DNA of 64,000 nucleotides, taken from assembly GCA_031256035.1 (NCBI GenBank), contig JAIRRJ010000086.1, forward strand, positions 1 through 64,000, in the 5' to 3' direction. Under the pieces are notes generated by a model. The model saw nothing but the letters and a program-made list of their open reading frames with translations. It had not been told where the DNA came from and made no database searches. Source of the stretch: Treponema sp. Lineage in GTDB: Bacteria; Spirochaetota; Spirochaetia; Treponematales; Breznakiellaceae. A program made the translations under genes and the position numbers. Within the stretch, counting starts at the first letter, position 1, and every line of letters starts with the position of its first letter. Positions 2,165-35,389 of the stretch are shown piece after piece.

Positions 2165-4537
2165 TTAAGAAAAAAGCGCGTCAGCATAGCGGACGCCGCC
2201 CATTGCGTCTTTTGAATAAAAGTCAGCGCCGATTTTGTCCGCATATCCTTGAGTCAACACCGCGCCGCCTGCCATGATGCGGCACTCCGGCGCTTTCTCC
2301 TTTAGCAAGCGGATTGTCTCTTCCATGTAGGCGACCGTTGTGGTCATTAGCGCGCTCAGTCCAGCCAGCCGTGCGTTTTCATTTAACACAGTTTCCGCTA
2401 TAACGGCAGGTTCAACATTTTTCCCCAGATCAATCACCTGGAAATTATAGTTTTCTAGCAGTATCTTTACAATATTTTTCCCTATGTCATGCACATCGCC
2501 CTTGACTGTTGCCAGAACGATTTTTCCGCGGCTCTCCTGCGTCTTTCCCTGTTTTGACATTTGCGACTTTATCGCCTCAAATGCGGATTTGGCAGCCTCC
2601 GCGCTCATCAAAAGCTGAGGCAGAAAAATTACATTGCTCTCAAAGTCTTTTCCGGTTTTGTCCAGTGCGGGAATCAAGTGATTATTGATGATTTCAAGCG
2701 GCGGCGTATCAAGCATGGCGTTAGCTGCTTTTACAGCCTGATCCCGCAATCCGCCCACAATCGCATCGTAAAGATTAGCCGGCGGCGCATCCTGTGCGGG
2801 TAACTTCGCTGCCGGAGCAGCCTGTTTTGAAAACCGTCTGATGTAATCGCCATGATTTTCGTCCCCGCCGTTCAATGCCCTGTACGCGAAAAACGCGTCC
2901 ATGATGGCGGCGTTCATCGGATTGACGATGCCGGCGCTTAAACCTCGGTTCATGGCAAGCGTGAAAAAAGCAGCGTTGATATGTTCCCTTTCAGGAAGCC
3001 CGAAAGAAACATTTGATACGCCGAGTATTGTATGAACGCCCAGTTTGTGCCGGGCATGTTCCACCGTTTCCAGTGTGATTTTCGCATTGTCTGCGCCGGC
3101 GCTTACCGTCATGGTCAGCGCGTCAACGATAATGTCTTTTTTGGGGATGCTATAGCGCTCTGCGACGGCAATGATTGTCTCCGCAATGCGGATTCTGCCC
3201 TGCGCGGTTTTAGGTATCCCATTGTCATCAAGGGTGAGCGCAACCACGGCAGCTCCGTATTTTTTTACCAGAGGCAGAATCTTTTCGATAGATTCTTTCT
3301 TGCCGCTGACAGAATTGAGCAGGGGTTTGCCGTTGTAAAGCCGCAATGCGCGTTCGGCGGCGGCGGCGTTCACTGTGTCGATTTGCAGGACGGTATTGGT
3401 AACGCTTTGCAATTCTGTTACAACCTTCGCCAGCATTTCCGCTTCGTCAATGTCCGGCAGCCCAACGTTCACATCAAGAATGTCCGCGCCGTTTTCCGCC
3501 TGCGCCAGCCCTTCACGGCAGAAATAATCAAAGTCGCGATCATACAACGCTTTCTTCATGCGCGGTTTGCCTGTGGGATTGATCCTCTCTCCGACAATGA
3601 CGGTCTTTTCGCCGAACATTACGGTTTTTCCGTAAGACGACACTACGGTATAATTTTTGGCTGATGCCGGCGCGAGGGGAATATTCCGGCAGGCTGCGGT
3701 CATTGCCGCTATGTGATCGGGCGTTGTGCCGCAGCAGCCGCCTATTATCTGCACGTGAGCTGCAATGTCCGCCATATCGGCGGCGAATTCATCCGGTGTT
3801 ACACGATATGCGGTTTTTCCGTTTACCTGTTCCGGCATCCCCGCATTGGGATTTATGATGACTGGAATGCTGACGTATTTCAGCAGATCGGGAAGAAGCG
3901 ATTTCATCTGCTTTGGACCGAGGCCGCAGTTAAATCCCAGCGCATCAGCCCCCAGCCCTTCGATCAGGCTGACTGCGGTCAGAATATCAGCGCCTGTAAG
4001 CAGCCTGCCGGAACTATCGGGGGTAAAGGTAACCAGTACCGGAAGGCTGCAATTTTCTTTTGCCGCCAGCATTGCCGCCTTTATTTCGTATGTATCTGTC
4101 ATGGTTTCGATTAACACCAGATCAGCCCCCGCCTGCGCTCCGGCGGTAATCATCTCCGCAAAAATACTTACAGCTTCCTCAAAATCCAAATCCCCAAACG
4201 GCGCCAACAGTTTGCCTGTCGGCCCGATGTCAAGCACGGCATAAACGTTTTTTGCCTGCGCAGCTTTTCTTGCAATCGCAACGCCGGCGGATACCACCTG
4301 ATTTACTGAATATCCGGTGTCATGCAGCTTGAGGCGGTTGGCGCCGAAAGTATTTGCCTTCAATATTTGACAACCTGCCTGCACATAAGAGCGGTGTATG
4401 TCCAGCACCACGCCGCTGTGCGTTATGTTCCATAATTCCGGCAGTTCACCGGCTGAAAGGCCGTTGTTCTGCAGCATCGTCCCCATCGCGCCGTCAAATG
4501 TCAGCCGTTCTTTTCCCAGCCGTTGCAAAAAATCCAT
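2165..4537 (-). CDS. metH: Cobalamin-dependent methionine synthase, short form
   Basis: The protein has 790 residues and transfers a methyl group from methyltetrahydrofolate to homocysteine via cobalamin. Domains: homocysteine methyltransferase barrel (1-290) with zinc ligands Cys204 (GFNCG) and Cys268-Cys269 (GGCCGTTPDH); pterin-binding barrel (about 310-565, VIVGERINPTG and DILDVNVG); an Ala/Pro linker (571-588); cobalamin cap and binding domain (about 589-790) with DVHDIG at 681-686, where His683 is the lower cobalt ligand. The S-adenosylmethionine-dependent reactivation domain of E. coli MetH (about 1,227 residues) is missing and is encoded by the preceding gene. The start ATG overlaps that gene's TAA (TAATG) with GGGAGG upstream, so the two are translationally coupled. 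Last gene of the metF operon. Confidence 0.95.
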   Translation of the reverse strand: MDFLQRLGKERLTFDGAMGTMLQNNGLSAGELPELWNITHSGVVLDIHRSYVQAGCQILKANTFGANRLKLHDTGYSVNQVVSAGVAIARKAAQAKNVYAVLDIGPTGKLLAPFGDLDFEEAVSIFAEMITAGAQAGADLVLIETMTDTYEIKAAMLAAKENCSLPVLVTFTPDSSGRLLTGADILTAVSLIEGLGADALGFNCGLGPKQMKSLLPDLLKYVSIPVIINPNAGMPEQVNGKTAYRVTPDEFAADMADIAAHVQIIGGCCGTTPDHIAAMTAACRNIPLAPASAKNYTVVSSYGKTVMFGEKTVIVGERINPTGKPRMKKALYDRDFDYFCREGLAQAENGADILDVNVGLPDIDEAEMLAKVVTELQSVTNTVLQIDTVNAAAAERALRLYNGKPLLNSVSGKKESIEKILPLVKKYGAAVVALTLDDNGIPKTAQGRIRIAETIIAVAERYSIPKKDIIVDALTMTVSAGADNAKITLETVEHARHKLGVHTILGVSNVSFGLPEREHINAAFFTLAMNRGLSAGIVNPMNAAIMDAFFAYRALNGGDENHGDYIRRFSKQAAPAAKLPAQDAPPANLYDAIVGGLRDQAVKAANAMLDTPPLEIINNHLIPALDKTGKDFESNVIFLPQLLMSAEAAKSAFEAIKSQMSKQGKTQESRGKIVLATVKGDVHDIGKNIVKILLENYNFQVIDLGKNVEPAVIAETVLNENARLAGLSALMTTTVAYMEETIRLLKEKAPECRIMAGGAVLTQGYADKIGADFYSKDAMGGVRYADALFS

Positions 4538-5202
4538 TAGTTCGCCTCCCGAAACGCACATAGCTCATCGCCGCAGCGTTCACATTTTGTCCTGTTCTCT
4601 TTTTTTTCTTCGGTGTTTTGCAACGAAGTTTCCCGCGCAAAACCTATGACAGCGGTAACCGACTTGGAAGGTATCAGCATATACCCGTTAGTCAACGTCA
4701 GCCCTATGCGGCTGCTGCAATTTAACAGCCGTAAAATATCTTTCTGGTGAACAATGTCAAAATCGCCGTATCCGGGGCTGAACCGCGTTGTGTGATACAG
4801 TCCGCTTACTTCCGGTTTTTGTGCAATTTCATTTTCAATTGTATCGCAATATTCTTCTATCATCACGGCGCACACGGCATGTGCAATTACCGCTTTTTCC
4901 ATATCCTGCACACTGTATCGGCGGATCAGCGTATCCGCTCCTGTTCCCAGAGTTACAGCCATAAGCGCAATCCGGCGGCAGCCATGTAAATGTCCCGCCA
5001 GATTTTGACTGTTAACTGTCATGCTGTCCAACTGCATTGCATTTGAGTCAAGGCGGCAATCCCATATACCGTATACATTTTTAGGGCTTGTTTTATCCGT
5101 CAATTCTGAGGCAATCTGTTCTATCAGTGCGGAAGTCCTTTCGTCAATAGTTGTGCCGCTATGTTTCAGATAACGCAGCACTTCCTTCTCTGATATTTTC
5201 AT
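4537..5202 (-). CDS. Stand-alone methionine synthase reactivation (B12 activation) protein
   Basis: The protein has 221 residues and matches the MetH activation domain. RFSPGYGD at 140-147 corresponds to the RxSPGY S-adenosylmethionine-binding signature, and the C-terminus has CERCGDELCAFRE, which resembles the end of that domain. It should reductively methylate oxidised cob(II)alamin on the short MetH encoded next to it. Residues about 188-197 (GFARETSLQN) are encoded by a copy of the 20-nt element found in der and hisC, here read in the opposite orientation; it sits between the domain core and the Cys-rich tail, where an insertion should be tolerated. The gene starts 1 base after metF ends. 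Confidence 0.9.
   Translation of the reverse strand: MKISEKEVLRYLKHSGTTIDERTSALIEQIASELTDKTSPKNVYGIWDCRLDSNAMQLDSMTVNSQNLAGHLHGCRRIALMAVTLGTGADTLIRRYSVQDMEKAVIAHAVCAVMIEEYCDTIENEIAQKPEVSGLYHTTRFSPGYGDFDIVHQKDILRLLNCSSRIGLTLTNGYMLIPSKSVTAVIGFARETSLQNTEEKKENRTKCERCGDELCAFREAN
4619..4638 (+). repeat. 20-nt coding-inserted element, copy 1
   Basis: Exact copy of GCAACGAAGTTTCCCGCGCA inside the MetH-reactivation gene. The host gene is on the - strand, so it reads the element as ARETSLQ. Flanks extend the similarity on both sides with TTTT...AAAA. Confidence 0.9.
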
Positions 5203-5203
5203 G

Positions 5204-6070
5204 TTATTTAAATATCTCTGACAGATTTTTCATTATCCTTCCGGCAATATCCGGTTTGTTCATGGTGTATATGTGAATATGACGGACATCATTTGCGATC
5301 AGGTCGATGATCTGCTCGGTAGCGTAAGCCACGCCCGCCTGGTTCATGGCGGCAGGGTTAGCGGCAAATTTATCTACAATCGCCCGGAATCTGGCAGGGA
5401 GCGTTGTACCGGACAGTTTGCAGATACGCGCAATCTGCCGCGCATCGGTAACAGGCATAATCCCGGCGATGACGGGTACATTAACACCGTTATGCAAAAG
5501 ACGGAACAAAAAATTATACAGAATATTGTTTTCGAAGAACATCTGCGTTGTAAAAAACTGACACCCGCAGTCAGCCTTTATCTTCAGGCTCTCCATGTCT
5601 TTTTGTATGCTCTCCGATTCAGGATGCCCTTCGGGATAACAAGCGCCGCCGATACAAAAGCCGCCGTAATCCCGAATATCCTTCATCAAATCAGAGGCAT
5701 GTCTATATTGCGCGTCGGCGGGAAAAACATCGCCTTCACGTATATCTCCCCGCAATGCCAGAATATTTTCAATCTTGTGCGATGCAAGTTCCGTCAAAAT
5801 ATTTCTGACAGCCTCCCGTTCTGATGAAACGCAGGTAAGATGAGCCAGCGCGGTAATTCCGCATCCGTTTTGCGCTTCATCCGCCAAGCTGGCAGTGTTG
5901 GCGCTTGTTCCGCCCCCTGCGCCGTATGTAATGCTGATGAAGGAAGGAGCCAGCGCCGCAGTTTCGCGGACAATTGATTTCGCGCCTGCCAACCCCGAAC
6001 CGTGTTTTGGAGGAAACAGCTCGCAGGAAACTGTTACTTTACCGGCGTTCAGTATGTCAGTTATTTTCAT
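5204..6070 (-). CDS. metF: 5,10-Methylenetetrahydrofolate reductase
   Basis: The protein has 288 residues, the usual length for MetF. It reduces methylene-THF to methyl-THF, the methyl donor for the MetH encoded downstream. Family marks: CELFPPK near residue 18, ISITYGAGGGTS at about 46-57, LTCVSSEREAV, LRGDIREGD, a GACYPEGHPES segment and FFTTQMFF in the FAD-binding barrel. It is the first gene of metF-activation protein-metH (gaps of 1 base or less). A -10 hexamer ends 9 bases before its ATG and no Shine-Dalgarno is visible, so translation probably starts at or near the mRNA 5' end. In acetogenic relatives MetF could also serve the methyl branch of CO2 fixation; nothing here proves that. 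Confidence 0.95.
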   Translation of the reverse strand: MKITDILNAGKVTVSCELFPPKHGSGLAGAKSIVRETAALAPSFISITYGAGGGTSANTASLADEAQNGCGITALAHLTCVSSEREAVRNILTELASHKIENILALRGDIREGDVFPADAQYRHASDLMKDIRDYGGFCIGGACYPEGHPESESIQKDMESLKIKADCGCQFFTTQMFFENNILYNFLFRLLHNGVNVPVIAGIMPVTDARQIARICKLSGTTLPARFRAIVDKFAANPAAMNQAGVAYATEQIIDLIANDVRHIHIYTMNKPDIAGRIMKNLSEIFK

Positions 6071-6079
6071 TCTTATTTT

Positions 6080-6108
6080 ATTATAACGTATTTTTTCAAT
6101 TTTGTTGA
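6080..6108 (-). promoter_or_regulatory. metF promoter, near-leaderless
   Basis: On the - strand: TCAACA (-35, 6103-6108), 17-bp spacer, perfect TATAAT (6080-6085), then 9 bases to the metF ATG. Transcription would start about 2 bases before the start codon. Confidence 0.65.
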
Positions 6109-6132
6109 TGCATTATAATTCACTTCATAAGC

Positions 6133-6161
6133 CTGACAAATCAAAAACTAAGTTGTATACT
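6133..6161 (+). promoter_or_regulatory. der promoter, ultra-short leader
   Basis: CTGACA (-35, 6133-6138), 17-bp spacer, TATACT (6156-6161), then 11 bases to the der ATG. The expected leader is only about 4 bases and contains no Shine-Dalgarno. Divergent from the metF promoter. Confidence 0.7.
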
Positions 6162-6172
6162 CTGATAGTCTC

Positions 6173-7573
6173 ATGGAATTCATAACTGGTCAAAAATACC
6201 GCAATCTTCCCACAGTAGTTCTCGCCGGACGCCCCAATGTGGGAAAATCCACGCTCTTTAACCGCCTGCTCCGAAAACGCAGGGCAATTACTGACCCGAC
6301 ACCCGGCGTTACACGCGATCCGGTGGAGGCTGACTGCCTCATCGCCGGAAAACCTCTCAGGCTCATTGATACCGGCGGCTTCAAGCTGGCGGACTGCGAA
6401 GGCATCGACAAGCTGGTAGTGGCAAAAACACTGGATACGATAAAAAGGGCAGACCTAATCGTTCTGATTCTTGAAGCCGGAGAAATAACAAGCGAGGACG
6501 AAGAGTTTATTGAGCGGCTACGCCCTTACCGCGACAGGCTCATTGCCGCAGTGAACAAAACCGAAGGTGGCAGGAAGCAGGCTGATTCGTGGAATGTTCT
6601 CTCATTTGGATTTGATAAAGTTTTTATGATTTCCGCCGAGCATGGCGATAATATCGGCGAGCTGGAACAGGAAATCCTGAGGCGCCTTGATTTTTCCAAA
6701 GTCGAAGAAGGACATTTTGCAACGAAGTTTCCCGCGCATAATGCAACGAAGTTTCCCGCGCAAGAGAAGCAGAACATTCACATCGCTCTTTTGGGAAAAC
6801 CAAACACGGGCAAATCCACGCTTTCAAACAGACTCACTTCAACTAACGCTTCGATTGTCAGCGAAATCCCCGGCACGACAAGGGACACGGTCGAGGGCGT
6901 TTTCCGCTGGAAGGCGCGTGAATTTGTCATTCTTGACACTGCCGGTATCCGCCGTAAAACAAAGGTTACAGAAAACATCGAATACTATTCTGTTAACCGC
7001 GCCATCAAAACAATCAACGATGCGGACATTGTAGTCCTTTTGATCGATGCGGCGGAAGGGCTTACTGATCAGGACAAAAAAATCGCAGCACTTGCGCATG
7101 ATAAAGGCAGGGGCATCATAATGGCGCTTAACAAATGGGATACCATGCCTCAGCACAAAAATACATTCAAAGATGTGTCAGACAGAATTCATTTTCAGTT
7201 TGGTCAGATGGAATACGCGCCCATTGTCCCTGTCAGCGCGAAGGACGGAACCGGCGTTGACAAGCTCCTGAAAACGGCGGTACAGATGTACGATCAACTC
7301 AACCTGAATATTGAAACGTCCCGCCTCAATCAGGCGCTGGAACAGTGGCTGCAGGAAAATCCCCCGCCCACAGGTCCTCAGACCCGCTTCAAAGTAAAAT
7401 ACGCCGTGCAGAAATCCGCCAATCCGGTACATTTTATTTTTTTTGTCTCACGCCCAAAAGCGGTAAGCGAAGCGTACATTTCCTATTTGCGTAACAAGAT
7501 ACGAAAAGAGTTGGGCTTTTCGCTTATCCCTGTTTATGTTGAGATGAGGGATTCATCTAAGAAAGCAAACTAG
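6173..7573 (+). CDS. der: Ribosome-assembly GTPase Der (EngA)
   Basis: The protein has 466 residues with two tandem Era-like GTPase domains and a C-terminal KH-like domain, acting in 50S subunit maturation. Domain 1: P-loop GRPNVGKST (19-27), switch TPGVTRDP, DTGG (66-69), NKTE in place of NKxD. Domain 2: GKPNTGKST (from 209), TTRDTVEG, DTAGIRRK, NKWD. The KH-like part holds QNPPPTGPQ-type sequence (QENPPPTGPQTRFKV). The linker between the two G domains (182-198, HFATKFPAHNATKFPAQ) is made of two tandem copies of the 20-nt element, so its length is element-driven. The start is the only ATG close to the promoter; no Shine-Dalgarno precedes it. Confidence 0.97.
   Translation: MEFITGQKYRNLPTVVLAGRPNVGKSTLFNRLLRKRRAITDPTPGVTRDPVEADCLIAGKPLRLIDTGGFKLADCEGIDKLVVAKTLDTIKRADLIVLILEAGEITSEDEEFIERLRPYRDRLIAAVNKTEGGRKQADSWNVLSFGFDKVFMISAEHGDNIGELEQEILRRLDFSKVEEGHFATKFPAHNATKFPAQEKQNIHIALLGKPNTGKSTLSNRLTSTNASIVSEIPGTTRDTVEGVFRWKAREFVILDTAGIRRKTKVTENIEYYSVNRAIKTINDADIVVLLIDAAEGLTDQDKKIAALAHDKGRGIIMALNKWDTMPQHKNTFKDVSDRIHFQFGQMEYAPIVPVSAKDGTGVDKLLKTAVQMYDQLNLNIETSRLNQALEQWLQENPPPTGPQTRFKVKYAVQKSANPVHFIFFVSRPKAVSEAYISYLRNKIRKELGFSLIPVYVEMRDSSKKAN
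6719..6762 (+). repeat. 20-nt coding-inserted element, copies 2 and 3 in tandem
   Basis: GCAACGAAGTTTCCCGCGCA at 6719-6738 and again at 6743-6762, separated by TAAT. Together they form a 24-nt period that keeps the der frame and encodes ATKFPAHN-ATKFPAQ between the two GTPase domains. Confidence 0.95.
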
Positions 7574-7619
7574 TTTTTCGAGCTATAAGCCCTGAAAAAA
7601 TCTGTTTTGAAAGTACGTT

Positions 7620-8939
7620 TCATTTGTGCCGACTGACGGCACTTTGCGCGTGACCGGCAAGCCCTTCTGCGTTTGCCAGTACTTCCGCCGCCTGCGCGGC
7701 TCGATCAAAACCGGAACCGGGAGCGCAGCGCAGGGTTGTAACAGTTTTGAGAAAATGCCGCACCGAGAGGCCGCCTGTAAAGCGCGCACTGCCTGATGTT
7801 GGCAATGTATGGTTGATGCCCGCTGAATAATCGCCCAGAGTTTCCGCGGAGAGTGATCCGACAAAAAGCGAACCGTAATTTTTCAGATGGGGAATCCAAA
7901 CCTGCGCATCGGCAGTTTGCAGTTCAAGGTGTTCAGGCGCGATAATGTTTGCAATTCGAATCGCATCTTCTTTGCTTGCATACACAATAATGACGCCGCC
8001 CGCATTCAGTGAAGCGCGCGCGGTGGCGGCTGTAGGCAGAGAGGCAAGTCGCTTCTCAATAGCTGCGGCGATTTTTTCAGCCAGATCGCGATTGGAAATC
8101 AGCGCCCGTGCCCGCGCATCGGGATCATGTTCCGCCTGAGCAAGCATATCCGCCGCGACAAAATCGGCAGCCTGCTCCGTGTCGCCGTCCGCGATTATCA
8201 GCACATCGGTCGGGCCGGCGACAAAATCGATTCCAACCTTTCCGTAAAGAAGCCGTTTTGCCTCCTGCACATACTTGTTTCCCGGTCCTGCGATAACATC
8301 AACGCGGGGGACAGACTCTGTTCCAAGCGCAAGAGCGGCGATTGCCTGCGCCCCGCCGATTGCGAAAAGACGGACTTTACTCTCTGCTTTGTTCGCCGCT
8401 TCAATCGCTATTGCGGCAGCGGCAAGTATTTTCCGGTTGGGCAGGCCGTCCGCTTCAGGCGGAGAGGCGAGAATTACCTGCTCCACACCGGCGCAAAGAG
8501 CGGGTATCATCGCCATCAAAACCGAGGAAAAAAGCGGGAAACGCCCTGCGGGAACATAGATGCCCGCCCGCTCTACGGGAATTACCCGCTGACCGGTATC
8601 AAGCCCCTGTTCCATTTCATATTCAAAATCAGCGAATTGTTCTTTCTGTTTTATTGAAAAGCGCATGATGTGTTCCGCCGCCAGTTCCAGCGCCGCCGCC
8701 AATGTCGGATCAGTTTCACGTAACTCAGCGGCGGCATTTTTCGCGGCGGACAGAGGAACTTCAAGCTGCTGAGGTGAACTTTTATCAAATTTGGAAGCAA
8801 AGCGGCGCACAGCCTTATCTCCATTTTTTTGCACAGCGGCGATAATTTTTTTTACGGTGGATTCTGTTTTTTTGTCATATTTCTGTACCGATTGGCTTTT
8901 CCAGTAAACATCAAATTCCGCGCCTTGAATAATTTTCAT
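7620..8939 (-). CDS. hisD: Histidinol dehydrogenase
   Basis: The protein has 439 residues, typical for HisD, and performs the last two oxidations of histidine synthesis (histidinol to histidine with NAD+). Marks: VPGG-like segment GIYVPAGRFPLFSSVLM, GGAQAIAALALGTESVP, DVIAGPGNKYVQEAKR, FVAGPTDVLIIAD, AQAEHDPDARA, the catalytic APEHLEL and NHTLPT. It is the third gene of the hisA/I/E-hisC-hisD run; its ATG overlaps the hisC stop (TAATG), so translation is coupled. It converges with der, with only 46 bases between the two stops and no obvious terminator. Confidence 0.97.
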   Translation of the reverse strand: MKIIQGAEFDVYWKSQSVQKYDKKTESTVKKIIAAVQKNGDKAVRRFASKFDKSSPQQLEVPLSAAKNAAAELRETDPTLAAALELAAEHIMRFSIKQKEQFADFEYEMEQGLDTGQRVIPVERAGIYVPAGRFPLFSSVLMAMIPALCAGVEQVILASPPEADGLPNRKILAAAAIAIEAANKAESKVRLFAIGGAQAIAALALGTESVPRVDVIAGPGNKYVQEAKRLLYGKVGIDFVAGPTDVLIIADGDTEQAADFVAADMLAQAEHDPDARARALISNRDLAEKIAAAIEKRLASLPTAATARASLNAGGVIIVYASKEDAIRIANIIAPEHLELQTADAQVWIPHLKNYGSLFVGSLSAETLGDYSAGINHTLPTSGSARFTGGLSVRHFLKTVTTLRCAPGSGFDRAAQAAEVLANAEGLAGHAQSAVSRHK

Positions 8940-10045
8940 TATCCTTTACCTCTCAATATTTCTGTGCATGTTTTAAGAAACGCATCCATTTCTTCATCTG
9001 TTCCGATACTGACGCGCAGGAAATCGCTTATCCGTTCCCTGTTAAAATGCCGGACGAGAATCCCCCGTTCTCGCAGGGCGGCAAAGAACACCGCGCCGGT
9101 TGTACCGGGCGCCTTCACAAAAACAAAATTCGCCGCCGAGGGCAAGACCGTACAGCCAAGTCCGCGCAATGATTCGATGACACGCTCCCGTGTAGCAATC
9201 ACGCGGCGGTTGATTTCATCGTAGTATGCCGCATCGGAAACTGCCGCAGCCGCGCCTGCCAAAGCAAGCCGGTCAAGGGTGTACGAATTGAACGAGTCCC
9301 TGATGCGGCAAAGCCCTTCGATTAATTCTTCATAGCCGATGGCAAAACCAACGCGCAGTCCCGCAAGAGACGCTGATTTGGACAGAGTGTGTACAGTGAG
9401 CAGATTTGGATATTTTTCAATATGGGGGACTGCTGTTTGCGCGGGAAACTTCGTTGCATAATGTGCGCCGAAGGCGATATATGCCTCATCAAGAATAAAA
9501 ATTCTTTTCTGTTTTTCCAAGTATTCTGCAAGCAGTAAAATGTCGGCTAACGAAAGCGGTATGCCGGTCGGTGCGTTGGGATTGGGAAAGACAACTCCGC
9601 CGGAAGGTATTTTATACTCAGCGGGATTAATTGAAAAGTCAGCACCCAGGGGAATAACGCGATACGGAATGTCCCAAAGATCGGCATATATCGGGTAGAA
9701 ACTGTAAGTAATGTCAGGAAAAAGAATGGGCGCGGCTGCCCTGCCGCTTGCAAAAAATGCTGCAAAAGCAAAAGCCAAAACTTCATCAGAGCCGTTACCT
9801 GCAAAGACTTGCTCAGGTTTTACACCGTAGCGGGCAGCAACAGCTTCCCGCAATACCGTGCAGGCAGGATCGGGATAAAGTCTTAATGGGTCGCCAGCAG
9901 CCTTTTGAATAGCTTCAATAACCTTGGGCGAAGGGGGGTAGGGGTTTTCATTTGTGTTGAGTTTGATAAACTGCCTGTCCCTTGGCTGTTCGCCGGGAAT
10001 ATATGGAGAAAGACTTTTTGTGCGGTCATTCCAGTAAATACTCAC
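8939..10045 (-). CDS. hisC: Histidinol-phosphate aminotransferase
   Basis: The protein has 368 residues, a PLP-dependent aminotransferase of fold type I. Marks: NTNENPYPPSP near 30-40, GNGSDEVL, the substrate/cofactor segment FPNPNAPTG, LDEAYIAF and the PLP lysine in HTLSKSASLAGLRVG (Lys223). Between the cofactor Asp/Tyr segment and the PLP lysine, residues about 196-203 (YATKFPAQ) come from copy 4 of the 20-nt element, placed in a loop. The start is GTG with AGGAA about 10 bases upstream; hisA/I/E ends 5 bases before it. Confidence 0.96.
   Translation of the reverse strand: MSIYWNDRTKSLSPYIPGEQPRDRQFIKLNTNENPYPPSPKVIEAIQKAAGDPLRLYPDPACTVLREAVAARYGVKPEQVFAGNGSDEVLAFAFAAFFASGRAAAPILFPDITYSFYPIYADLWDIPYRVIPLGADFSINPAEYKIPSGGVVFPNPNAPTGIPLSLADILLLAEYLEKQKRIFILDEAYIAFGAHYATKFPAQTAVPHIEKYPNLLTVHTLSKSASLAGLRVGFAIGYEELIEGLCRIRDSFNSYTLDRLALAGAAAAVSDAAYYDEINRRVIATRERVIESLRGLGCTVLPSAANFVFVKAPGTTGAVFFAALRERGILVRHFNRERISDFLRVSIGTDEEMDAFLKTCTEILRGKG
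9438..9457 (-). repeat. 20-nt coding-inserted element, copy 4
   Basis: Exact copy of GCAACGAAGTTTCCCGCGCA on the - strand, in the sense orientation of hisC and in the same frame as in der (ATKFPAQ). Confidence 0.95.
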
Positions 10046-26264: not shown

Positions 26265-28004
26265 ATGGCAATAATTGGAATAGATTTAGGTACAACTAAC
26301 AGTCTTTGTGCTGCATGGCAAAATGGAAAAAGTGTGTTGATACCAAATGCGCTTGGTAAAATTTTAACACCATCGGTGGTAAGCATCGATGATAACGGCA
26401 CGGTGATAACCGGAGAAATTGCCAAACAAAGACTCGTTTCTCATCCCGGTAAAACCGCCTCGGTGTTCAAGCAATGGATGGGAACATCCAAAACATTTTC
26501 ATTGGACGAAAAAGAATTTACTCCGGAAGATTTATCGTCATTTATTTTGCGCAGTTTAAAAAACGATGCAGAAGCATTTTTGAAAGAAACAATTACCGAA
26601 GCGATTATCAGTGTGCCTGCTTATTTTAACGACCGCCAACGTACCGCAACAAGAACAGCGGGAATGTTAGCTGGGTTAAAAGTTGATCGCATCCTCAACG
26701 AGCCGTCGGCAGCAGCTCTTGCGTACCGGCAGCACGGCATACACGATGGAACAAGTGTGGTGTTCGATTTTGGCGGCGGCACTTTGGATGTATCAGTTTT
26801 AGATTCTTTTGGCAATATTGTCGATATACTTGCGGTTGCCGGTGATAATCATCTTGGCGGCAGCGACATTGATAAAGCGATAGTAAGCGCATTTTTTGAA
26901 GAACATACCGAATTGGGAAAGTTATGGGAAGATGAAAAACTGCCTAAAGAACAGTTCAATATGCTCATTAAAACAGCAGAAAACTGCAAAATGGCGCTGA
27001 CGGATAATCCTCAAGTTTTTATGATTTTTTCGCATAACGGTAAAGAATATAAAATGATGCTAAACAATGAAAAACTAACTGATATTTGTTCACCGACACT
27101 GTTGAAATTCAATAATGCGGTTAAACGGGCTTTGCAAAATGCTGAAAAAACACTGCCTCGTATTGATAATTTTATTCTGGTGGGCGGTTCGTGCCGAATG
27201 CCGATTGTTAAAGAGTATTTGCAAACCATCACCCAAAAACCGCCGCTTTTTGAAGTTGACCCGGATTTAGCGGTAGTAAGCGGTTTAGGAGTCGCAGCAG
27301 GTATTAAGGAACGCGATGAAAATATACGCGACATGGTTTTAATGGATATTTGTCCGTTTTCATTGGGGGTATCGGTTCGGAAAGGGGAACTGAACAATAG
27401 ATTTTCGCCGATAATACCGCGTAACAGCGCACTCCCGACAAGCCGTGTTGAACATTACAGCACCATTGCGGACTTTCAAACTGAAATATATTTTCGTATT
27501 TATCAGGGAGAATCGCTTGAAGCCTCCCAGAATTTGTTGCTGGGAGAATGTGAAATACCGGTGCCTCCGCTGCCTGCCGGCGAAGCAGCGGTTAAGGTAC
27601 GCTTTACGTACGACATTAACGGAATACTTGATATCGAATTTCATGTCTGGCAAAGCGGAGAAAAATTTCAAAAACTGATTATCAGCGATAATCAACTAAC
27701 GGAAGAGGAATTACAAAAACGGCTTGACGCATTGAGCAAATTGAAATTAAATCCGCGTGAGCTGGAAGAAAATAAATTGTTGATTGCACGCGGTCAGCGC
27801 TTATATGAAGAATATACCGGGCCTTTTCAACAGCGCATAGAAAATTCCCTGTTAGAGTTTGAACATGCACTTCTGCATGGGCACAGCTTACAAATTGCAA
27901 AGCTCTATGAAAAAACAAGTATATATTTTGATCATTTGGATTTACTGTTAAACAATTTGTTATTTACGGGTGAAATAGATTATCAAGATGAATATGAGGA
28001 ATAA
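26265..28004 (+). CDS. hscC: HscC-type Hsp70 chaperone
   Basis: The protein has 579 residues, shorter than DnaK (about 640) and close to E. coli HscC. N-terminal ATPase: GIDLGTTNSLCAAWQNG, ISVPAYFNDRQR, INEPSAAALAY-type sequence (LNEPSAAALAYRQHG), DFGGGTLDVSVLD, VGGSCRMPIV. Substrate domain: DICPFSLGVSVRKGE, FSPIIPRNSALPTSRVEHY, IYQGES, all features that I recall for HscC rather than DnaK. The C-terminal lid is short and ends acidic. A J-domain gene follows after 3 bases, as hscC pairs with djlB/djlC in E. coli. Placed after two spike-like genes, it may serve as a folding or loading chaperone for an exported protein; that is inference. Confidence 0.88.
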   Translation: MAIIGIDLGTTNSLCAAWQNGKSVLIPNALGKILTPSVVSIDDNGTVITGEIAKQRLVSHPGKTASVFKQWMGTSKTFSLDEKEFTPEDLSSFILRSLKNDAEAFLKETITEAIISVPAYFNDRQRTATRTAGMLAGLKVDRILNEPSAAALAYRQHGIHDGTSVVFDFGGGTLDVSVLDSFGNIVDILAVAGDNHLGGSDIDKAIVSAFFEEHTELGKLWEDEKLPKEQFNMLIKTAENCKMALTDNPQVFMIFSHNGKEYKMMLNNEKLTDICSPTLLKFNNAVKRALQNAEKTLPRIDNFILVGGSCRMPIVKEYLQTITQKPPLFEVDPDLAVVSGLGVAAGIKERDENIRDMVLMDICPFSLGVSVRKGELNNRFSPIIPRNSALPTSRVEHYSTIADFQTEIYFRIYQGESLEASQNLLLGECEIPVPPLPAGEAAVKVRFTYDINGILDIEFHVWQSGEKFQKLIISDNQLTEEELQKRLDALSKLKLNPRELEENKLLIARGQRLYEEYTGPFQQRIENSLLEFEHALLHGHSLQIAKLYEKTSIYFDHLDLLLNNLLFTGEIDYQDEYEE

Positions 28005-28007
28005 AAA

Positions 28008-29597
28008 ATGAATATTTGGGCAATTCTTGGAATAAAAAAAACCAATGACATTACGGTAATACGCAATGCGTATTCGGAAAAGGTAAAAATTGTTCACCCG
28101 GAAGACGATCCTCAGGGATTTGCGCAGTTAAAAGATGCGTACAAAGCTGCAATAAAAGCTGCATCAGCGCCGGAAAAACAGGCAGAAATGCAGAATGATG
28201 AAATCAAGGAACAGTCTCACTCGTCTCCGCCGGAGCCCGAAGAGACAAAAAAAGAAACTCCATCAGCGTATAATTTTTCCAGTTTAAGTAATTTTTGGCG
28301 CCAGATTATGGAACGCGATAAAAGGTCAGGCCGAAAAACCAGTATGAAAGAAATTTTATCGCAGGTAGAAAATCTAAAAAACGAGTACCTCCTTAAAACC
28401 GAAGCATTATTTGTAGCTAATGCACATACATGGTTTGCCGATTTTCAAAAACATTTTTTGGAAATTTGCGAGAAAATCAAAGGTAAGAATATGGGTTATT
28501 CCATTTCTTATTTAGAGTATATATGTCTGAATACCCATTTTATTAACCGGCGTTATGTAGCTGAAATTTGCGCTTATAATAAAAACCGGTTTTTCGATAA
28601 GAAGCAGCAGCATATCGGCGGGTATGATATTTCGTATTTTCTTATCTATTATGATCAATTATGGAATGATTTAATTGCATGGAACAATTTCGTTGAAGAA
28701 AAAGTATCTAGCCAGGAAATAACTCAATTTATTTTAGAAGCGATACCGGATTTTTATTCCTACCTTACCAACATTATCAGGTTTGGACTTCGTGAATGTG
28801 TTGACACACCGCAGTTCAAGGATATTGAAAAAGTTAAGGGCGACACTTTTCGATTTTGCGTCGGCGATTATATGGCACAAACAACGTTTGTATATTGCGA
28901 AACGGAGGGTAAGGATGCCGCGCTCATTTTTGAAGATTTTCACCAAAGGAAAAAATCAGCACATAACTGCAGGGATTATTCAACTTTAGATTTTTCAAAC
29001 AAAGATTTGTGCAATATAAAAGCAACATACTCAAATTTTCGGAAGTCAATTTTAAATAATGTAAATTTAAAAGAATCAACGCTTACCGGAGCGGATTTTA
29101 CTAATGCCCAAATGACCGATTGTGATCTTGATTATAGCGAGGTTCACGAAGCTAGTTTTGCAAATGCGATACTCAAAAACGCAAGCTTTATCTGTGTTCG
29201 GGCAGCAGCAAGATTACCGCATCCCCGCAATAAATGGCGGCATGTAGGTTTTTTCCCGGTTAATTTTGAAAATGCCGTTTTGACCAAAGCAAACTTTAAT
29301 AATGCTGATTTTCACCGGGCAAATTTTAAGAATGCCCAAATGAAAAATAGCTATTTACGATACGGTGATTTTTCGGATTCCGATTTTTCCGGCGCCGATT
29401 TGTCGGGAGCAGATTTATCGAATGCGGATTTTTCAGGGGCAAATTTTACCGGCGCGAAATTATCTGCGGTCAATTTTTCCAGTGCTAATTTGGAAGACGC
29501 TGTTTTTCTCGATGCAGATTTATCAGGAACCCTATTAAGGAACGCAAACTTACACAATGCGGTATTTCATAAGAACAAAGGAGACATAGAAAAATGA
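28008..29597 (+). CDS. DjlB/DjlC-like J-domain protein with pentapeptide repeats
   Basis: The protein has 529 residues. Residues 1-55 form a short J-domain: IWAILGIKKTNDITVIRNAY, then VHPEDDPQGFAQLKDAY. The canonical HPD is HPE, followed by D-D-P-x-G-F, as I recall for HscC partners such as DjlB. A polar linker (60-90) and a mixed helical region (100-310) follow. Residues about 325-520 are pentapeptide repeats of the A(D/N)FxxAxF type (SDFSGADLSGADLSNADFS), interrupted once by a basic insert (ARLPHPRNKWRH). Such repeats form a right-handed quadrilateral beta-helix. The combination of J-domain and pentapeptide helix is unusual. It overlaps the next gene by 4 bases (ATGA). Confidence 0.82.
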   Translation: MNIWAILGIKKTNDITVIRNAYSEKVKIVHPEDDPQGFAQLKDAYKAAIKAASAPEKQAEMQNDEIKEQSHSSPPEPEETKKETPSAYNFSSLSNFWRQIMERDKRSGRKTSMKEILSQVENLKNEYLLKTEALFVANAHTWFADFQKHFLEICEKIKGKNMGYSISYLEYICLNTHFINRRYVAEICAYNKNRFFDKKQQHIGGYDISYFLIYYDQLWNDLIAWNNFVEEKVSSQEITQFILEAIPDFYSYLTNIIRFGLRECVDTPQFKDIEKVKGDTFRFCVGDYMAQTTFVYCETEGKDAALIFEDFHQRKKSAHNCRDYSTLDFSNKDLCNIKATYSNFRKSILNNVNLKESTLTGADFTNAQMTDCDLDYSEVHEASFANAILKNASFICVRAAARLPHPRNKWRHVGFFPVNFENAVLTKANFNNADFHRANFKNAQMKNSYLRYGDFSDSDFSGADLSGADLSNADFSGANFTGAKLSAVNFSSANLEDAVFLDADLSGTLLRNANLHNAVFHKNKGDIEK

Positions 29598-30589
29598 ATT
29601 ACTATTTTGTAATGGAGCAGCTGCCAGATGAAGAAAACATGGGCGCCATAGATTTTTATGCTGATGAATACTTGGTAAGCGATAGGCTGAAAAATCTATT
29701 TGAGCAGTATTTGCCAAAACTTGAATACAAGCAAGTGGTAAAAAATAATATTGTTTTTTGGAAGCTGCATTTGCCGACTTGTGAAAGCTGCACGGTTAAT
29801 TTCGAAAACGAAGCCATAACAAATATCTCGTTTTCAGATAATAAATTGCATTTAGCATTTACGGTAAATTTCCCGGGAAAAAATTACCTCATCATCAATC
29901 TGGCGGTGGCAGAAAGCATACTTCGAAGGGGCATACTCGGTTTAAAGCTGACAAGAATTGGCAGAGATTCGGAAAACATACAAAAAGAATATCAAATGCA
30001 AACTGGAAATGCAGCAAGTGATATTGAAATCCCCGGACAGGAAAGCAAACAAGACATAATCCCCATTGTATTACACGATGAAGTATTAGGCGGATTTGCA
30101 TTGTTTGAAAATAAACTTAGGAATTTCAGTACGTTCTACAAGAGGCATCAATTTTCGGGTTCGCTTGTTCGCTTGTCTTTTGATAATGAAACAGAAGAGG
30201 CAAACAAAAAAAGCCTGTTAATTCTGAGGGAATTATGCGCTAATGCAGAACATTGGAAAAAAATTATGCTTGAATTTCTTATTGATCGCTACAAAAATGA
30301 TGAATACTATACAAGTAACGGCAAAAAATTTTCAATGAATTTGTTTTCATTGATTGCAATAGATATAGAAGAAAAAAAGTTTAGAGAAATGTACGGCGAA
30401 GATTTTCATTTTATCTTCAATGACGATAATTCTCCGGGAGATCATTTTGTGTCGGGAACATTATCAAAAGGTCCAACAGATGTTGATGGCGACATTGATT
30501 CAAACCATGATTTTGAAACATGGAAATGCGACGAAAATGAAAGATGGGTAACACCCGAAGAATACCGGGAGAAGTATTCAGGGAGATAA
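29594..30589 (+). CDS. DUF2262-like protein with immunity-like N-terminus
   Basis: The protein has 331 residues. The first ~130 residues (MNYYFVMEQLPDEENMG, then ADEYLVSDRLKNLFEQYLP) look like small immunity-type domains of the Imm11/Imm43 kind, in which a short strand leads into a helix naming a residue position. The C-terminal ~190 residues resemble DUF2262: HDEVLGGFALFENKLRNF, a central helical segment, then DFHFIFNDDNSPGDHFVSG followed by a glycine-rich end. No catalytic site or signal peptide is visible. It is coupled to the J-domain gene by a 4-base overlap. Family assignments are from recall and uncertain. Confidence 0.5.
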   Translation: MNYYFVMEQLPDEENMGAIDFYADEYLVSDRLKNLFEQYLPKLEYKQVVKNNIVFWKLHLPTCESCTVNFENEAITNISFSDNKLHLAFTVNFPGKNYLIINLAVAESILRRGILGLKLTRIGRDSENIQKEYQMQTGNAASDIEIPGQESKQDIIPIVLHDEVLGGFALFENKLRNFSTFYKRHQFSGSLVRLSFDNETEEANKKSLLILRELCANAEHWKKIMLEFLIDRYKNDEYYTSNGKKFSMNLFSLIAIDIEEKKFREMYGEDFHFIFNDDNSPGDHFVSGTLSKGPTDVDGDIDSNHDFETWKCDENERWVTPEEYREKYSGR

Positions 30590-30593
30590 ATAA

Positions 30594-30866
30594 TTGAGTT
30601 TCATGATAATTGAAGAAGTTTTTACCATTCAAAACCGTGGGGTTGTGGTAACAGGAAAAATTCAAAATGGTTCACTAAAATTAAATGAAATCATAAAAAT
30701 AACAGGAGATAGTTTTGAAAAGAAAGCAACCATTATTGGATTTAATGTGAGTGATAAAATAATGGGAATAATGGAAGAAGGAGTAAATGCGGGAATATTA
30801 CTTAAAGGAATTGATAAAAGTGAAATAGAAAAAGGCTATTATTTGACAAATAATCCTCAAAACTGA
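30594..30866 (+). CDS. Small EF-Tu domain-2-like beta-barrel protein
   Basis: The protein has 90 residues: EEVFTIQNRGVVVTGKIQNG, then a K-L-N-E-I-I-K-I strand, and EKGYYLTN at the end. These match the second (OB-like) domain of EF-Tu (FxIxGRGxVxTGRIxxGxxK...), without any GTPase domain. Isolated copies occur among polymorphic-toxin and immunity genes in other bacteria, where their role is unclear. The likely start is TTG at 30594 with GGGAGA 7 bases upstream; an ATG at 30603 is the alternative. Its last codons contain the -35 of the next gene. Confidence 0.7.
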   Translation: MSFMIIEEVFTIQNRGVVVTGKIQNGSLKLNEIIKITGDSFEKKATIIGFNVSDKIMGIMEEGVNAGILLKGIDKSEIEKGYYLTNNPQN

Positions 30867-30872
30867 TATTAT
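30843..30872 (+). promoter_or_regulatory. Promoter inside the EF-Tu-like gene end, leaderless
   Basis: Perfect TTGACA (30843-30848), 18-bp spacer, TATTAT (30867-30872), then 6 bases to the ATG at 30879. The -35 lies within the last codons of the previous gene. Confidence 0.75.
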
Positions 30873-30878
30873 AGTATT

Positions 30879-31643
30879 ATGAAACAAAAAACGGGTAAAA
30901 AATTAGCAGTATTGGTGCTTTGCCTGATATTGTGTATATCAACCTTCGCTCAAAAAGGAAATGATGTTATGATGAACAAAGAAGAACTTATTAAAATCGC
31001 TTCAAATATTTTAAAAATATCAATTGATGTAGCTTTGGAAAACTATGAAGTATTACAAGAATTGGATGCGATTCGTGTAGGGAATCCAATAAGAGGAGGA
31101 GGAAGAGTAATTATTAGTAGTGATAAAACATTTTTGTTTGCATCTTCTTCAATAAGCCCGGAAGAACATTTGCGGGAATTTATTTCCGGAAGAAGATCGA
31201 AAAATTACTATCTTGTTGAAAATCCAAATGAAATATCAGATTATAATAAAAGACGAATTGAAAATGGAAAACTAAAACCATTATGTTCATTAGAAACAGA
31301 CGATAAAGAAAAATATGATACTATCGTAAAAATTATTCAAATAAGAAATTTGAATGTAAATATTAATGAATATTACTATTGCATTTATTCTTGTGAAAAG
31401 ACAGTATTTGAAATACTACATGAAATACAAATAAGTAGTTATCAATATTTAATACCTGAGAGATATGAAGATATTAATAATTTACCTAAAGATAATAAAA
31501 TAAATATTATTGAATATGCAATATATGATTATGAGGCATTAACTAATAAACATAATGGTACACTTGGAAGCATTACAGATAATTGTTTTTCAGCAGTATT
31601 TAATAGTAAATATGGATTTATTGGTACACTTGGTTGGGAATGA
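30879..31643 (+). CDS. Exported hypothetical protein
   Basis: The protein has 254 residues, AT-rich. Residues 1-24 are a signal peptide (KKLAVLVLCLILCISTFAQ), probably cleaved after the alanine. The body has no motif I recognise; it contains VGNPIRGGGRVIISSDKTFLF and SSISPEEHLREFISGRRS and ends SKYGFIGTLGW. It has its own leaderless promoter and no Shine-Dalgarno. It stands in a row of immunity-like genes, so it may be an exported effector or a periplasmic immunity protein; neither can be shown from sequence alone. Confidence 0.6.
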   Translation: MKQKTGKKLAVLVLCLILCISTFAQKGNDVMMNKEELIKIASNILKISIDVALENYEVLQELDAIRVGNPIRGGGRVIISSDKTFLFASSSISPEEHLREFISGRRSKNYYLVENPNEISDYNKRRIENGKLKPLCSLETDDKEKYDTIVKIIQIRNLNVNINEYYYCIYSCEKTVFEILHEIQISSYQYLIPERYEDINNLPKDNKINIIEYAIYDYEALTNKHNGTLGSITDNCFSAVFNSKYGFIGTLGWE

Positions 31644-31647
31644 TAGT

Positions 31648-32043
31648 ATGGATAATAAACAGATGAAAATGGATAATGCCAAAAAAAATTGGGATGCACA
31701 TAAAACTCCCTCATTAGATATTTGCCCGGAAGAATTTTGTTTTATGTGGGAAGAAAAAGATTCATATTTTGCATCTGGTCTTTATGATAACTTAAACGAA
31801 GCATTTGCGGCAAAATCCCCTGTTTTTAAGTCTTTTTGCGGAAATTCTTTTGGAAAATGCATAAGGGATAGGAATAATCAAGGATACAATGATGCTAAAG
31901 ATTGGTATGAACCATGCGAACCATTTTTAGAAACTGCAGGTTTACCTTGGTTTTATTTTATGAATCCTGAAACAATGAAAAAAAGAGATAAGATAATGTA
32001 TGATAAGCATTTTGAATTGGAAAAACCAGAAATTGGAGGATAA
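31648..32043 (+). CDS. Hypothetical protein (immunity-island member)
   Basis: The protein has 131 residues; the ATG at 31648 has GGGA 8 bases upstream. It is rich in aromatic residues and cysteine (ICPEEFCFMWEEKDSYF, FKSFCGNSFGKC, DWYEPCEPFLETAGLPWFYF). I do not recognise a family. No signal peptide or membrane segment. The AT content and spacing match its neighbours, suggesting common acquisition. Confidence 0.55.
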   Translation: MDNKQMKMDNAKKNWDAHKTPSLDICPEEFCFMWEEKDSYFASGLYDNLNEAFAAKSPVFKSFCGNSFGKCIRDRNNQGYNDAKDWYEPCEPFLETAGLPWFYFMNPETMKKRDKIMYDKHFELEKPEIGG

Positions 32044-32050
32044 TGAAAAA

Positions 32051-32530
32051 ATGAAATTTGATTGTATAAATAATCAATTTGTAGAACTAAAAATCATTGG
32101 CTACCAATTCCCGGAAATATTAGATGATGAATGGGACAGTAATTGGTTAAATGTGTATATTAACGTAAAATCAATAAAAAAATATTGGAATGTAACCGAT
32201 CCTGCAATAACAACATTTGAATTAAGAAGCCTCATTTATTGGCTTAAAAATATTTCGGAGAATAAAATAATCAAAAATAGAAACATGAACTTTACAGAAC
32301 CAAATATATCATTTCAATTAATGAATGAGTTTGGTTCAGACATAAAAAGGATAAAAATCAATTTTAGAATGGAATTTAGTCCATTAAAAAAGGGAACTGA
32401 GTGTGATATTGAATTAACCGCAAATAATACTCAGTTAAAGAATTATGCAGAAAAATTAGAATATGAATTAAGTGAATATCCTGAGCGGTGTACAGAAAAA
32501 ATAAATACGATAGGATGGATATATGAATGA
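32051..32530 (+). CDS. WapI-type immunity protein
   Basis: The protein has 159 residues; the ATG at 32051 follows GGAGG by 12 bases. The sequence LKIIGYQFPEI, DDEWDSNWLNVYINVKS, DPAITTFELRSLIYWLKNI matches, in my recollection, the WapI immunity family that neutralises contact-dependent toxins, including the conserved W-L-N and the helix after the T-F-E-L strand. No partner toxin is recognisable within the window. It overlaps the next gene by 8 bases. Confidence 0.65.
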   Translation: MKFDCINNQFVELKIIGYQFPEILDDEWDSNWLNVYINVKSIKKYWNVTDPAITTFELRSLIYWLKNISENKIIKNRNMNFTEPNISFQLMNEFGSDIKRIKINFRMEFSPLKKGTECDIELTANNTQLKNYAEKLEYELSEYPERCTEKINTIGWIYE

Positions 32531-32973
32531 GATAAGTGCAGTAATGGATAAAAGTGATTATCCAATCTATAACGATTTTTTGAATATCCAAATAGATAAT
32601 AAATTTCTCGATGAAATACTTGATGAAAAATATCCTGAAAATAATTACCGGGGGCTTATTCCCACATTATTATCAATGGAAAACGATGAAGAAAATAGAA
32701 TTGTATGGGAAAGAATTCTGCCCAATACTAATGTGCCCCGATGACGCTGATTTTTCCTGCACCATAATAATTGTAGAAATAGAAAATAAAAATGATGAAA
32801 TAATCTCATGGAATAAAATTGGATTAAACAAAACAGATGTATGGAATAAAGATTTGCGTAAATATGAATACGAACTTATAGGCCAAAATGTAGAATGGTT
32901 TGATAAAATTGATCCTTTAAAATTTTGTATAAATGAGTATAAAAAGATGATAGACTTGTTTAAAACGGATTGA
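32523..32973 (+). pseudogene. Frameshifted hypothetical gene
   Basis: Two overlapping frames together look like one protein of about 145 residues. The first (from the ATG at 32523) runs MNEISAVMDKSDYPIYN to VWERILPNTNVPR and stops at 32744. The second continues in another frame with CPILMCPDDADFSCTIIIVE to KKMIDLFKTD, ending at 32973. The join falls around 32710-32740. The PILMCPDD-FSCT segment looks conserved, so the real product probably spans the join. A one- or two-base indel, a sequencing error, or programmed frameshifting are possible; no classical slippery heptamer is evident. Confidence 0.6.
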
Positions 32974-32997
32974 CAAAAATATAGCATTGGGTAAAAT
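32970..32997 (+). promoter_or_regulatory. Promoter of DUF6985-like gene
   Basis: Perfect TTGACA (32970-32975), 16-bp spacer, TAAAAT (32992-32997). Expected leader is about 40 bases and includes GAGGGGG 6 bases before the GTG at 33044. Confidence 0.7.
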
Positions 32998-33043
32998 TGG
33001 AGAAAATAATGCTTCATTTTTGAATAATTTGAGGGGGATTTTT

Positions 33044-33547
33044 GTGTCTGATTCATTTTTTGCACTTATAGAATTAAAAGAATGGGAAAGTTTTTTTAAC
33101 ACCAGCTTGGACAAATTTTGTTTCCGTTTAGGCGGAGAAACAATTGTTGAAAAAATGAATGAAAATCATAAGTCTGGCGTAGATTATATAAAAACAAATC
33201 AAACAAAAATTTTGACAACGATACTATTAGAAGTGTTAAAGCATTATCCTAAATGGCAGGAAAAATATGGTTATGACGAGGATGATGAAAAAGATATTAT
33301 GCCTAATATTTCTACTATAAACGATTTTGCAAATTTGATAATGCCAAAACGCATTCATATTTTATCCGTTTATAGTGATGACTTCCCCTATATTGGATAT
33401 GATTTTGATTGCACGTGGGATGATGAACATGGACTGGGAATTATGATGCTTAAGGACAAAATTGTTAAAATAGGCGGAGGGGATATTTCTTTCTTAAATT
33501 GGGTTGCAGAAGAAGATAGAGACAAAACTAATAATTCACCAGAATGA
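33044..33547 (+). CDS. DUF6985-like small protein
   Basis: The protein has 167 residues. The GTG at 33044 follows the strong site GAGGGGG; the open frame extends upstream into the promoter, which argues against a longer product. The C-terminal half, SVYSDDFPYIGYDFDCTWDD followed by EHGLGIMMLKDKIVKIGG, resembles the DUF6985 pattern (a G-x-x-F-x-C-x-W-D-x-E-H-G-L-G core), often seen among immunity-like genes. Its N-terminus, SFFALIELKEWESFFN, resembles plant or bacterial helical caps of unknown role. No enzyme signature. Confidence 0.6.
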   Translation: MSDSFFALIELKEWESFFNTSLDKFCFRLGGETIVEKMNENHKSGVDYIKTNQTKILTTILLEVLKHYPKWQEKYGYDEDDEKDIMPNISTINDFANLIMPKRIHILSVYSDDFPYIGYDFDCTWDDEHGLGIMMLKDKIVKIGGGDISFLNWVAEEDRDKTNNSPE

Positions 33548-33581
33548 AAATATTATTTTGCATTTTTCAGGGGAATGTACT

Positions 33582-33917
33582 ATGAATTATTCAATATATG
33601 TAATTTTACACTTTGAGACAAAAAAAGAACACACCAAAATAAAACTTATGAATAAAGTAAAAAAAATAATTGAAGAAGAATATAAGATAAATCAAATTGA
33701 AGGCAATATAATAATAGTAGAATTGGAGAATATATCAACATGGGAATATTGTGTTTATAAAATAATTGATTTTGCACAAGATTTTGGATACCAATGGATA
33801 ATAACGGGGAGTATTAATTTTGAGATAAGTTTATGGTCAAATGATTCTAAAATAAGTGGTATAAAAGCAATGGAAATAAATTGCAGTAATAATTATGAAT
33901 GCGCCAATTTTACATAA
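33582..33917 (+). CDS. Hypothetical protein (immunity-island member)
   Basis: The protein has 111 residues; the ATG at 33582 follows GGGGA by 7-8 bases. Mixed alpha/beta with IEGNIIIVELENISTWEYCV and GYQWIITGSINFEISLW. I do not recognise it. AT-rich, no signal peptide; position suggests an immunity-type gene. Confidence 0.55.
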   Translation: MNYSIYVILHFETKKEHTKIKLMNKVKKIIEEEYKINQIEGNIIIVELENISTWEYCVYKIIDFAQDFGYQWIITGSINFEISLWSNDSKISGIKAMEINCSNNYECANFT

Positions 33918-33934
33918 CATGGGGGGGAATAATT

Positions 33935-34319: not shown

Positions 34320-34353
34320 ATTCAATAATAGCAAATAATACAAAGGAGAAAAA

Positions 34354-35385: not shown

Positions 35386-35389
35386 GTTC

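Follow-up and report, generated by a model that had tools for sequence, protein, structure and literature searches.

The systems closest to the repeat reported here are a few families of short mobile DNA. Insertions of repetitive extragenic palindromic (REP) sequences inside genes with the reading frame kept have been published (PMC6006769; PMC3733652); TnpA-REP enzymes cleave at CT or CA, and a REP of Marinomonas carries a TTTA loop (PMC8266576). Rickettsia palindromic elements (RPEs) lie in frame in protein genes and are translated (PMC3733652). Here we describe a 24-nucleotide (nt) unit from a stretch of 64,000 nt of Treponema sp. (assembly GCA_031256035.1, contig JAIRRJ010000086.1, positions 1 to 64,000), hereafter the window. 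The unit is a real multi-copy miniature element, precisely inserted, that has entered genes of termite-gut spirochetes many times, and we propose a likely mechanism for its movement. An earlier, sequence-only reading of the window had recognized a dispersed element inserted in frame, translated in both orientations and comparable in behavior to the coding palindromes of Rickettsia, a view that our analysis shares. That no known feature explains it, as was also stated, is too strong a claim given the published frame-keeping REPs inside genes (PMC6006769; PMC3733652).

Insertion in exact 24-nt steps

The window contains four exact copies of the 20-mer GCAACGAAGTTTCCCGCGCA, at 4620-4639 (+), 6719-6738 (+), 6743-6762 (+) and 9438-9457 (-); the last three had been placed correctly by the sequence-only reading and the first had been put at 4619-4638. 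Its exclusion of a chance origin agrees with 100 shuffles, in which matches with three or fewer mismatches averaged 0.03, and with the genome of the window (G000; 3.12 Mb in 120 contigs), where 147 places match at this threshold and a reversed control pattern matches none. The inserted unit is not 20 nt long, as had been assumed, but 24 nt: it starts 5 nt upstream of the 20-mer and reads NWHWT-GCAACGNAGTTHCCCGCGC, i.e., a 5-nt spacer (N-WHWT) followed by a 19-nt core. Spacers are lineage-specific, with TTTT in 46 of 98 first copies in G000 and ACTT in 35 of 51 first copies in genome G141, which makes the spacer part of the element.

One unit is located at 4615..4638 (+, spacer GTTTT) in the gene of a MetH activation-domain protein (4537..5202, - strand, 221 aa; PF02965, E 1.4e-10) and is read from the - strand as ARETSLQN. 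The gene for the GTPase Der (6173..7573, +, 466 aa) holds two units head to tail, at 6714..6737 (+, spacer ATTTT) and 6738..6761 (+, spacer ATAAT), and the gene for the histidinol-phosphate aminotransferase HisC (8939..10045, -, 368 aa) holds one at 9439..9462 (-, spacer ATTAT), read HYATKFPA. Der and HisC were assigned by family and structure comparison, and the 20-mer is exact in all four units. The genes and readings given earlier (ARETSLQ from the other strand in the MetH-activation gene, ATKFPA twice in Der and once in HisC) are correct. The proposed location in linkers or loops holds for Der, where the pair lies between the two GTPase domains, and for HisC, where the insert faces an 8-residue gap in PDB 3hdo. 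A fifth match to the 20-mer, with three mismatches (2793-2812, -, in metH), corresponds to a doubtful degenerate unit at 2794..2817 (-) with an unfitting left flank; it may be an eroded copy or chance. An Rfam scan of 4400-9700 gave no match at gathering level.

Comparison with relatives delimits the inserts. In HisC, 8 of 12 relatives lack precisely 8 residues and the remaining 4 have 4-5 residues of their own there; the DNA alignment shows gap 0 in 8 of 11 rows. All 17 aligned relatives of Der are gapped by 12-16 residues over the unit pair, exactly 16 in 4 of them; at the DNA level gap 0 is obtained once 48 nt are left out in 3 of 19 rows, linker length being variable. In the MetH-activation protein, the alignment leaves a gap of exactly 8 residues in 3 of 4 relatives. 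Neither of the refuting conditions set by the sequence-only reading applies: relatives within the genus lack the residues, and further copies were found genome-wide outside the window. Two G000 paralogs each lack the other's 24-nt insert, with flanks 84-91% identical, and a copy in genome G156 is absent at gap 0 from G152, with flanks 92 and 88% identical.

The usual junction is C^A and targets resemble (GC)GC^A(R), the left side of the MetH-activation copy (T at -6, G at -5) being the exception. Among the left flanks of 162 first copies, position -6 is C in 142, position -7 is G in 118, position -8 is C in 101 and position -9 is G in 71, and position -10 shows no preference. The base following 165 last copies is A in 158 (the trailing A was in the search pattern, mismatches being allowed), and the next base is C in only 6. 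The left flank and the right end have a single base (C) in common in both HisC and Der, which excludes a target duplication longer than 1 nt at these sites. We conclude that insertion takes place in exact 24-nt steps; wherever this could be assessed, at most 1 nt of the target is duplicated. At its 3' end the element itself reads GCGC and the next base is usually A, which reproduces the target, and this resemblance would give arrays of a single orientation.

Three pairs of loci (L073/L288, L114/L357 and L124/L129) carry units in opposite orientation at homologous places, some bases apart, which suggests either hot spots of insertion or inversion at the site. At a rumen Treponema locus, three species have a unit at the identical place (L277, L299 and L318), where it may be native or old.

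The copies are not confined to essential genes, as the earlier reading had suggested: of 241 copies judged (tandem units counted separately), 208 lie in some open reading frame (ORF) of 90 aa or more and 33 lie outside. Copies in ORFs occur on both strands and in all frames (116, 56 and 36 by offset); these ORFs are by construction without in-frame stops. As a direct reading shows, all six frames of the 20-mer are free of stops. The frame is preserved because the unit length of 24 is divisible by 3 and stops are absent.

Variation, arrays and distribution of the unit

Positions 1-6, 8-11 and 13-19 are near-constant among 225 units with up to two mismatches, mostly from G000 and G141, a constancy that is partly built in since copies were collected by core match. 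The freedom of position 7 (A 150, C 47, G 15, T 9) and position 12 (T 138, C 63, A 20, no G), counted in 221 units with full flanks, was in contrast not produced by the search pattern. The sample for these analyses comprised 126 units from the 147 places in G000 and 71 from the 144 places at up to three mismatches in G141, an assembly of a single contig.

A C-GNA-G sequence forms a very stable DNA loop. On sequence grounds, the segment AAC-GNA-GTT of the unit could close a small hairpin with a triloop, the middle base of which is the free position 7. Positions 4 and 10 were compared in 255 units with the other positions fixed, a sample in which G4 units were deliberately sought and A4 units came only from among the matches listed: A4/T10 is found in 242, G4/C10 in 8 (from five genomes), G4/T10 in 3, A4/A10 and G4/A10 in 1 each and A4/C10 in none (Fisher p about 1e-12, ignoring shared ancestry). 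Loops of GAGA or GAAA occur in four units of G533, the only one of 390 genomes to show them.

G141 also carries a long form, in which the same ends surround a REP-like TTTA hairpin that replaces the loop, making a unit of 39 nt; folding of this form compared with shuffles gives z -2.3. The palindrome CCGRCTTYAGYCGG occurs 66 times in G141 and 0 times in G000. Of 46 G141 contexts, 28 under a strict criterion and 36 under a wider criterion have the TTTA-loop palindrome in loop position, within a GCAAC...AGTT frame; these counts are biased upward since some loci were chosen for their right end. At the G141 loci L158, L145, L392 and L402, a palindrome CCGACTTTAGTCGG is seen also in period-15 runs and inverted pairs, with up to three per loop and, in L158, also outside the unit frame. 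Copies at L284 and L285 lie within REP-like palindromes (GTCATGCTGAAC...TTGTTTCAGCATC and a similar one), by eye a short repeat inside a repeat.

Units form head-to-tail arrays of period 24 with up to six members, and 129 of 238 units are single. Of 72 pairs of neighboring array units, 53 are identical at positions 7 and 12, compared with an expected share of 0.25, and the remaining 19 differ; the agreement indicates that local duplication contributes to arrays. One shared site has one unit in G152 and five in G153. Insertions are clustered in G000, with 20 gaps below 3 kb among 97 events listed (8.6 expected), and weakly so in G141, with 8 among 83 events listed (4.9 expected).

In a survey of the family, 26 of 195 genomes have at least one place at up to two mismatches, and five reach at least 10 places: G000 (133), G141 (111), G153 (26), G152 (12) and G156 (10). 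A draw from the phylum found matches to the 20-mer at up to one mismatch in 9 of 392 genomes. The degenerate 20-mer was found in 50 stretches of a named-sequence collection. Of these, 46 are titled as spirochetes, Treponema for the most part; termite samples account for many of them, and ruminants and further sources for others. The other four are titled Janthinobacterium, Ramlibacter, Ignavibacteriae and Oscillospiraceae. The first three have unfitting flanks and are probably chance matches; the Oscillospiraceae contig, from a termite sample, has fitting flanks and may be misbinned. The only copy found in a viral collection (L031) shares its flanks with a Treponema contig (L309) and adjoins a tRNA-like sequence; ARAGORN detected no tRNA in the L031/L309 neighborhood. 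In genome G174, degenerate units follow each other with period 24 (L337), and their erosion suggests old insertions.

A proposed single-strand mechanism and its alternatives

Insertion without duplication, the C^A junction, the hairpin-like ends and the TTTA-loop long form make an HUH mechanism the most likely one, as far as sequence features can tell. More precisely, we give a probability of about one half to a miniature REP- or IS200/IS605-like element that an HUH enzyme mobilizes in single-stranded form. The unit would move as folded single-stranded DNA, an HUH (Y1) enzyme of the IS200/IS605-REP kind would cut and join it at C^A, and WTGC at the hairpin foot would guide the choice of GC^A. 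In favor of this reading, the single Y1 gene found in G000 scores above the NCBIfam cut-off of NF047646 (REP-associated tyrosine transposase, RAYT), and positions 4 and 10 show paired changes. Because the element's own end would be a good target, units would pile up in arrays, aided by local duplication. Survival in genes would follow from 24 and 39 being multiples of 3 and from the 20-mer being stop-free in every frame, each hit adding 8 (or 13) residues that loops and linkers would tolerate. We suggest more tentatively that 24 nt may be the whole of the mobile unit, i.e., a single-strand element in which one tiny hairpin serves as both ends, the 3' end equals the preferred target so that the element targets itself into arrays, and the interior is free to take up larger hairpins (39 nt and more). 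With REPs ranging from 21 to 65 nt, such an element would fall below them in structure only, not in length.

A number of observations weigh against movement by an HUH enzyme. Y1 (HUH) transposase genes were found in 20 of 45 genomes, being present in 4 of the 5 genomes with at least 10 copies (G152, with 12 copies, has none) compared with 16 of 40 others and, when the limit is set at five copies or more, in 5 of 9 compared with 15 of 36. No unit at up to three mismatches was detected around 30 Y1 loci, within up to 1.5 kb per side, and long-form ends were not recognized at Y1 loci either, using a noisy search pattern. The RAYT gene of G000 adjoins an apparent groEL; its product groups with the RAYT of a copy-free genome, in trees that, owing to narrow motif filters, covered 6 of 30 and 8 of 28 loci (one of the 8 a wrong ORF). 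Guide-target pairing showed no covariation: TGC could pair with GC^A, but both hardly vary, and positions -2 and +21, which would pair next, do not change together. The position tables of the unit contain no GTAG or CGTC tag, the foot reading WTGC. Folding of the short unit is no better than that of shuffles (z 0.2 to 0.5). The orientation of units in G141, 31+/11- in one putative replichore and 21+/20- in the other, points neither way. By eye, the Y1 proteins of G153 and G156 resemble their counterparts in G141, G154 and G170 and differ from the one in G000. RAYT as a proven mobilizer was rejected, being unsupported by neighborhood, phyletic pattern or tree. No autonomous element with the same ends was recognized among the right ends listed without a short unit; the test of the left half required AGTT, and a large element may have escaped it.

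The agreement of neighboring units, the shared site with one unit in G152 and five in G153, and the clustering of the listed insertions in G000 and, weakly, in G141 could also be produced by replication template switching without any dedicated enzyme: a nascent strand ending in ...GCGC would slip onto a copy, copy a 24-nt period and return. The graded homology between target and element 3' end is in line with such slippage. It offers no account, however, of a single sequence family or of the near-constant right-hand A, it does not predict the paired changes at positions 4 and 10, HisC and Der provide one base of homology only, and 19 of the 72 neighboring pairs differ; we therefore regard it as unlikely. 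A recombinase of the tyrosine, serine or DEDD type that inserts a small circular form into a GC^A core would explain the exact junctions and the GCGC^A common to element end and target, and no common mobile gene was apparent by eye in 12 neighborhoods of arrays (ORF lists of 3.7-18 kb; no family search was made). The ends of the element have no inverted repeats, and a double-stranded circle of 24 bp is implausibly small for these recombinases. Integrons are moreover reported absent from T. primitia (PMC3607928), and taken together we find a recombinase quite unlikely.

A near-invariant core, in copies that were found by core match, might alternatively mark a functional DNA motif, such as a binding, uptake or repair site, that is kept by selection and does not move. 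The presence of copies within ORFs in every frame and on either strand, their absence or small number in most relatives and the eroded copies in G174 render this improbable. The period-24 arrays and the homology of the 3' end to the unit end had prompted a model of RNA-templated, telomerase-like addition by a reverse transcriptase. This model is weakened by the absence of RVT_1 from the two richest genomes, G000 and G141; the domain is absent from G152 as well and present once each in G153 and G156, and we consider the model very improbable. An ancestral sequence, chance, or an assembly or adapter artifact, finally, would fit the unit that three species have at the same rumen Treponema place, and is otherwise hardly credible in view of the shuffle and reversed-pattern controls, the empty orthologous sites, and the occurrence of the element in independent assemblies from several hosts, with arrays and internal variation; for the window copies it is refuted by their absence from relatives.

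Relation to known repeats and significance

RPEs are palindromic, and some are much longer than 24 nt. Compared with them by description, our element differs in its length of 24 nt and its weak hairpin, the short unit being no significant hairpin by folding; it is like them in its in-frame insertion in protein genes and in being translated (PMC3733652). With REP/RAYT REPtrons, as far as PMC8266576 describes them, it has in common a short length, many copies and a C^A junction that recalls TnpA-REP cleavage, and the TTTA-loop hairpin of its 39-nt form resembles that of the Marinomonas REP. Like some REPs (PMC6006769; PMC3733652), it is intragenic with the frame kept. As with RAYT-associated REPs, a RAYT gene is present in G000, yet G152 has no Y1 match. 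Unlike REPs, the element has no GTAG/GTGG or CGTC tag at the hairpin foot, a stem of only 3 bp in its short form, head-to-tail arrays of period 24 and no copy beside the Y1 loci examined, and it lies mainly in ORFs, REPs being described as mostly intergenic. Since tag, neighborhood and intergenic location are all lacking, we do not file the element as a REP; by analogy, it would work like one.

The resemblance to IS200/IS605, as presented in PMC6006769, lies in insertion without target duplication beside a short fixed sequence and in a hairpin whose foot could act as a guide; the differences are that no transposase lies inside, that one small hairpin takes the place of two ends and that guide and target do not covary. 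REPINs are likewise miniature, non-autonomous and found in tandem clusters, but in the account of PMC3116915 it is an inverted REP pair that replicates, whereas more than half of our units are single and arrays run head to tail. No title or abstract opening in the literature searched, which left bioRxiv preprints and most subscription papers outside, describes the element. It looks like a relative, of unusually small size, of the hairpin-type mobile repeats already known. If 24 nt is indeed the whole mobile unit, it would be the first of its kind known to us to reside mainly within genes.

The window has further features apart from the element. At the start of the contig (1-102) the heptamer TCAACAG is repeated 14.6 times in tandem; none of the other loci examined shows this repeat. 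A degenerate 23-nt tandem repeat (GCACGGATCGCTCCCCGTAAC-like), the core of which likewise had no match in those loci, is located past an ORF end at 1053-1146. Positions 28001-36000 have about 34% GC, compared with about 48% for the genome, with strong GC and AT skew, and were possibly acquired.

The 24-nt element provides a clean case of short mobile DNA that adds peptides to conserved proteins. The movement of REP-like and RPE-like sequences and the conversion of their insertions into protein segments have long been hard to test; with this element, occupied and unoccupied sites can be compared base by base, arrays change in length by steps, the target is defined and structural variants exist, and the minimal ends and target are accessible to oligonucleotide tests. 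If the more tentative reading is true, a single-strand element of 24 nt would be writing eight-residue peptides into proteins throughout the genome.

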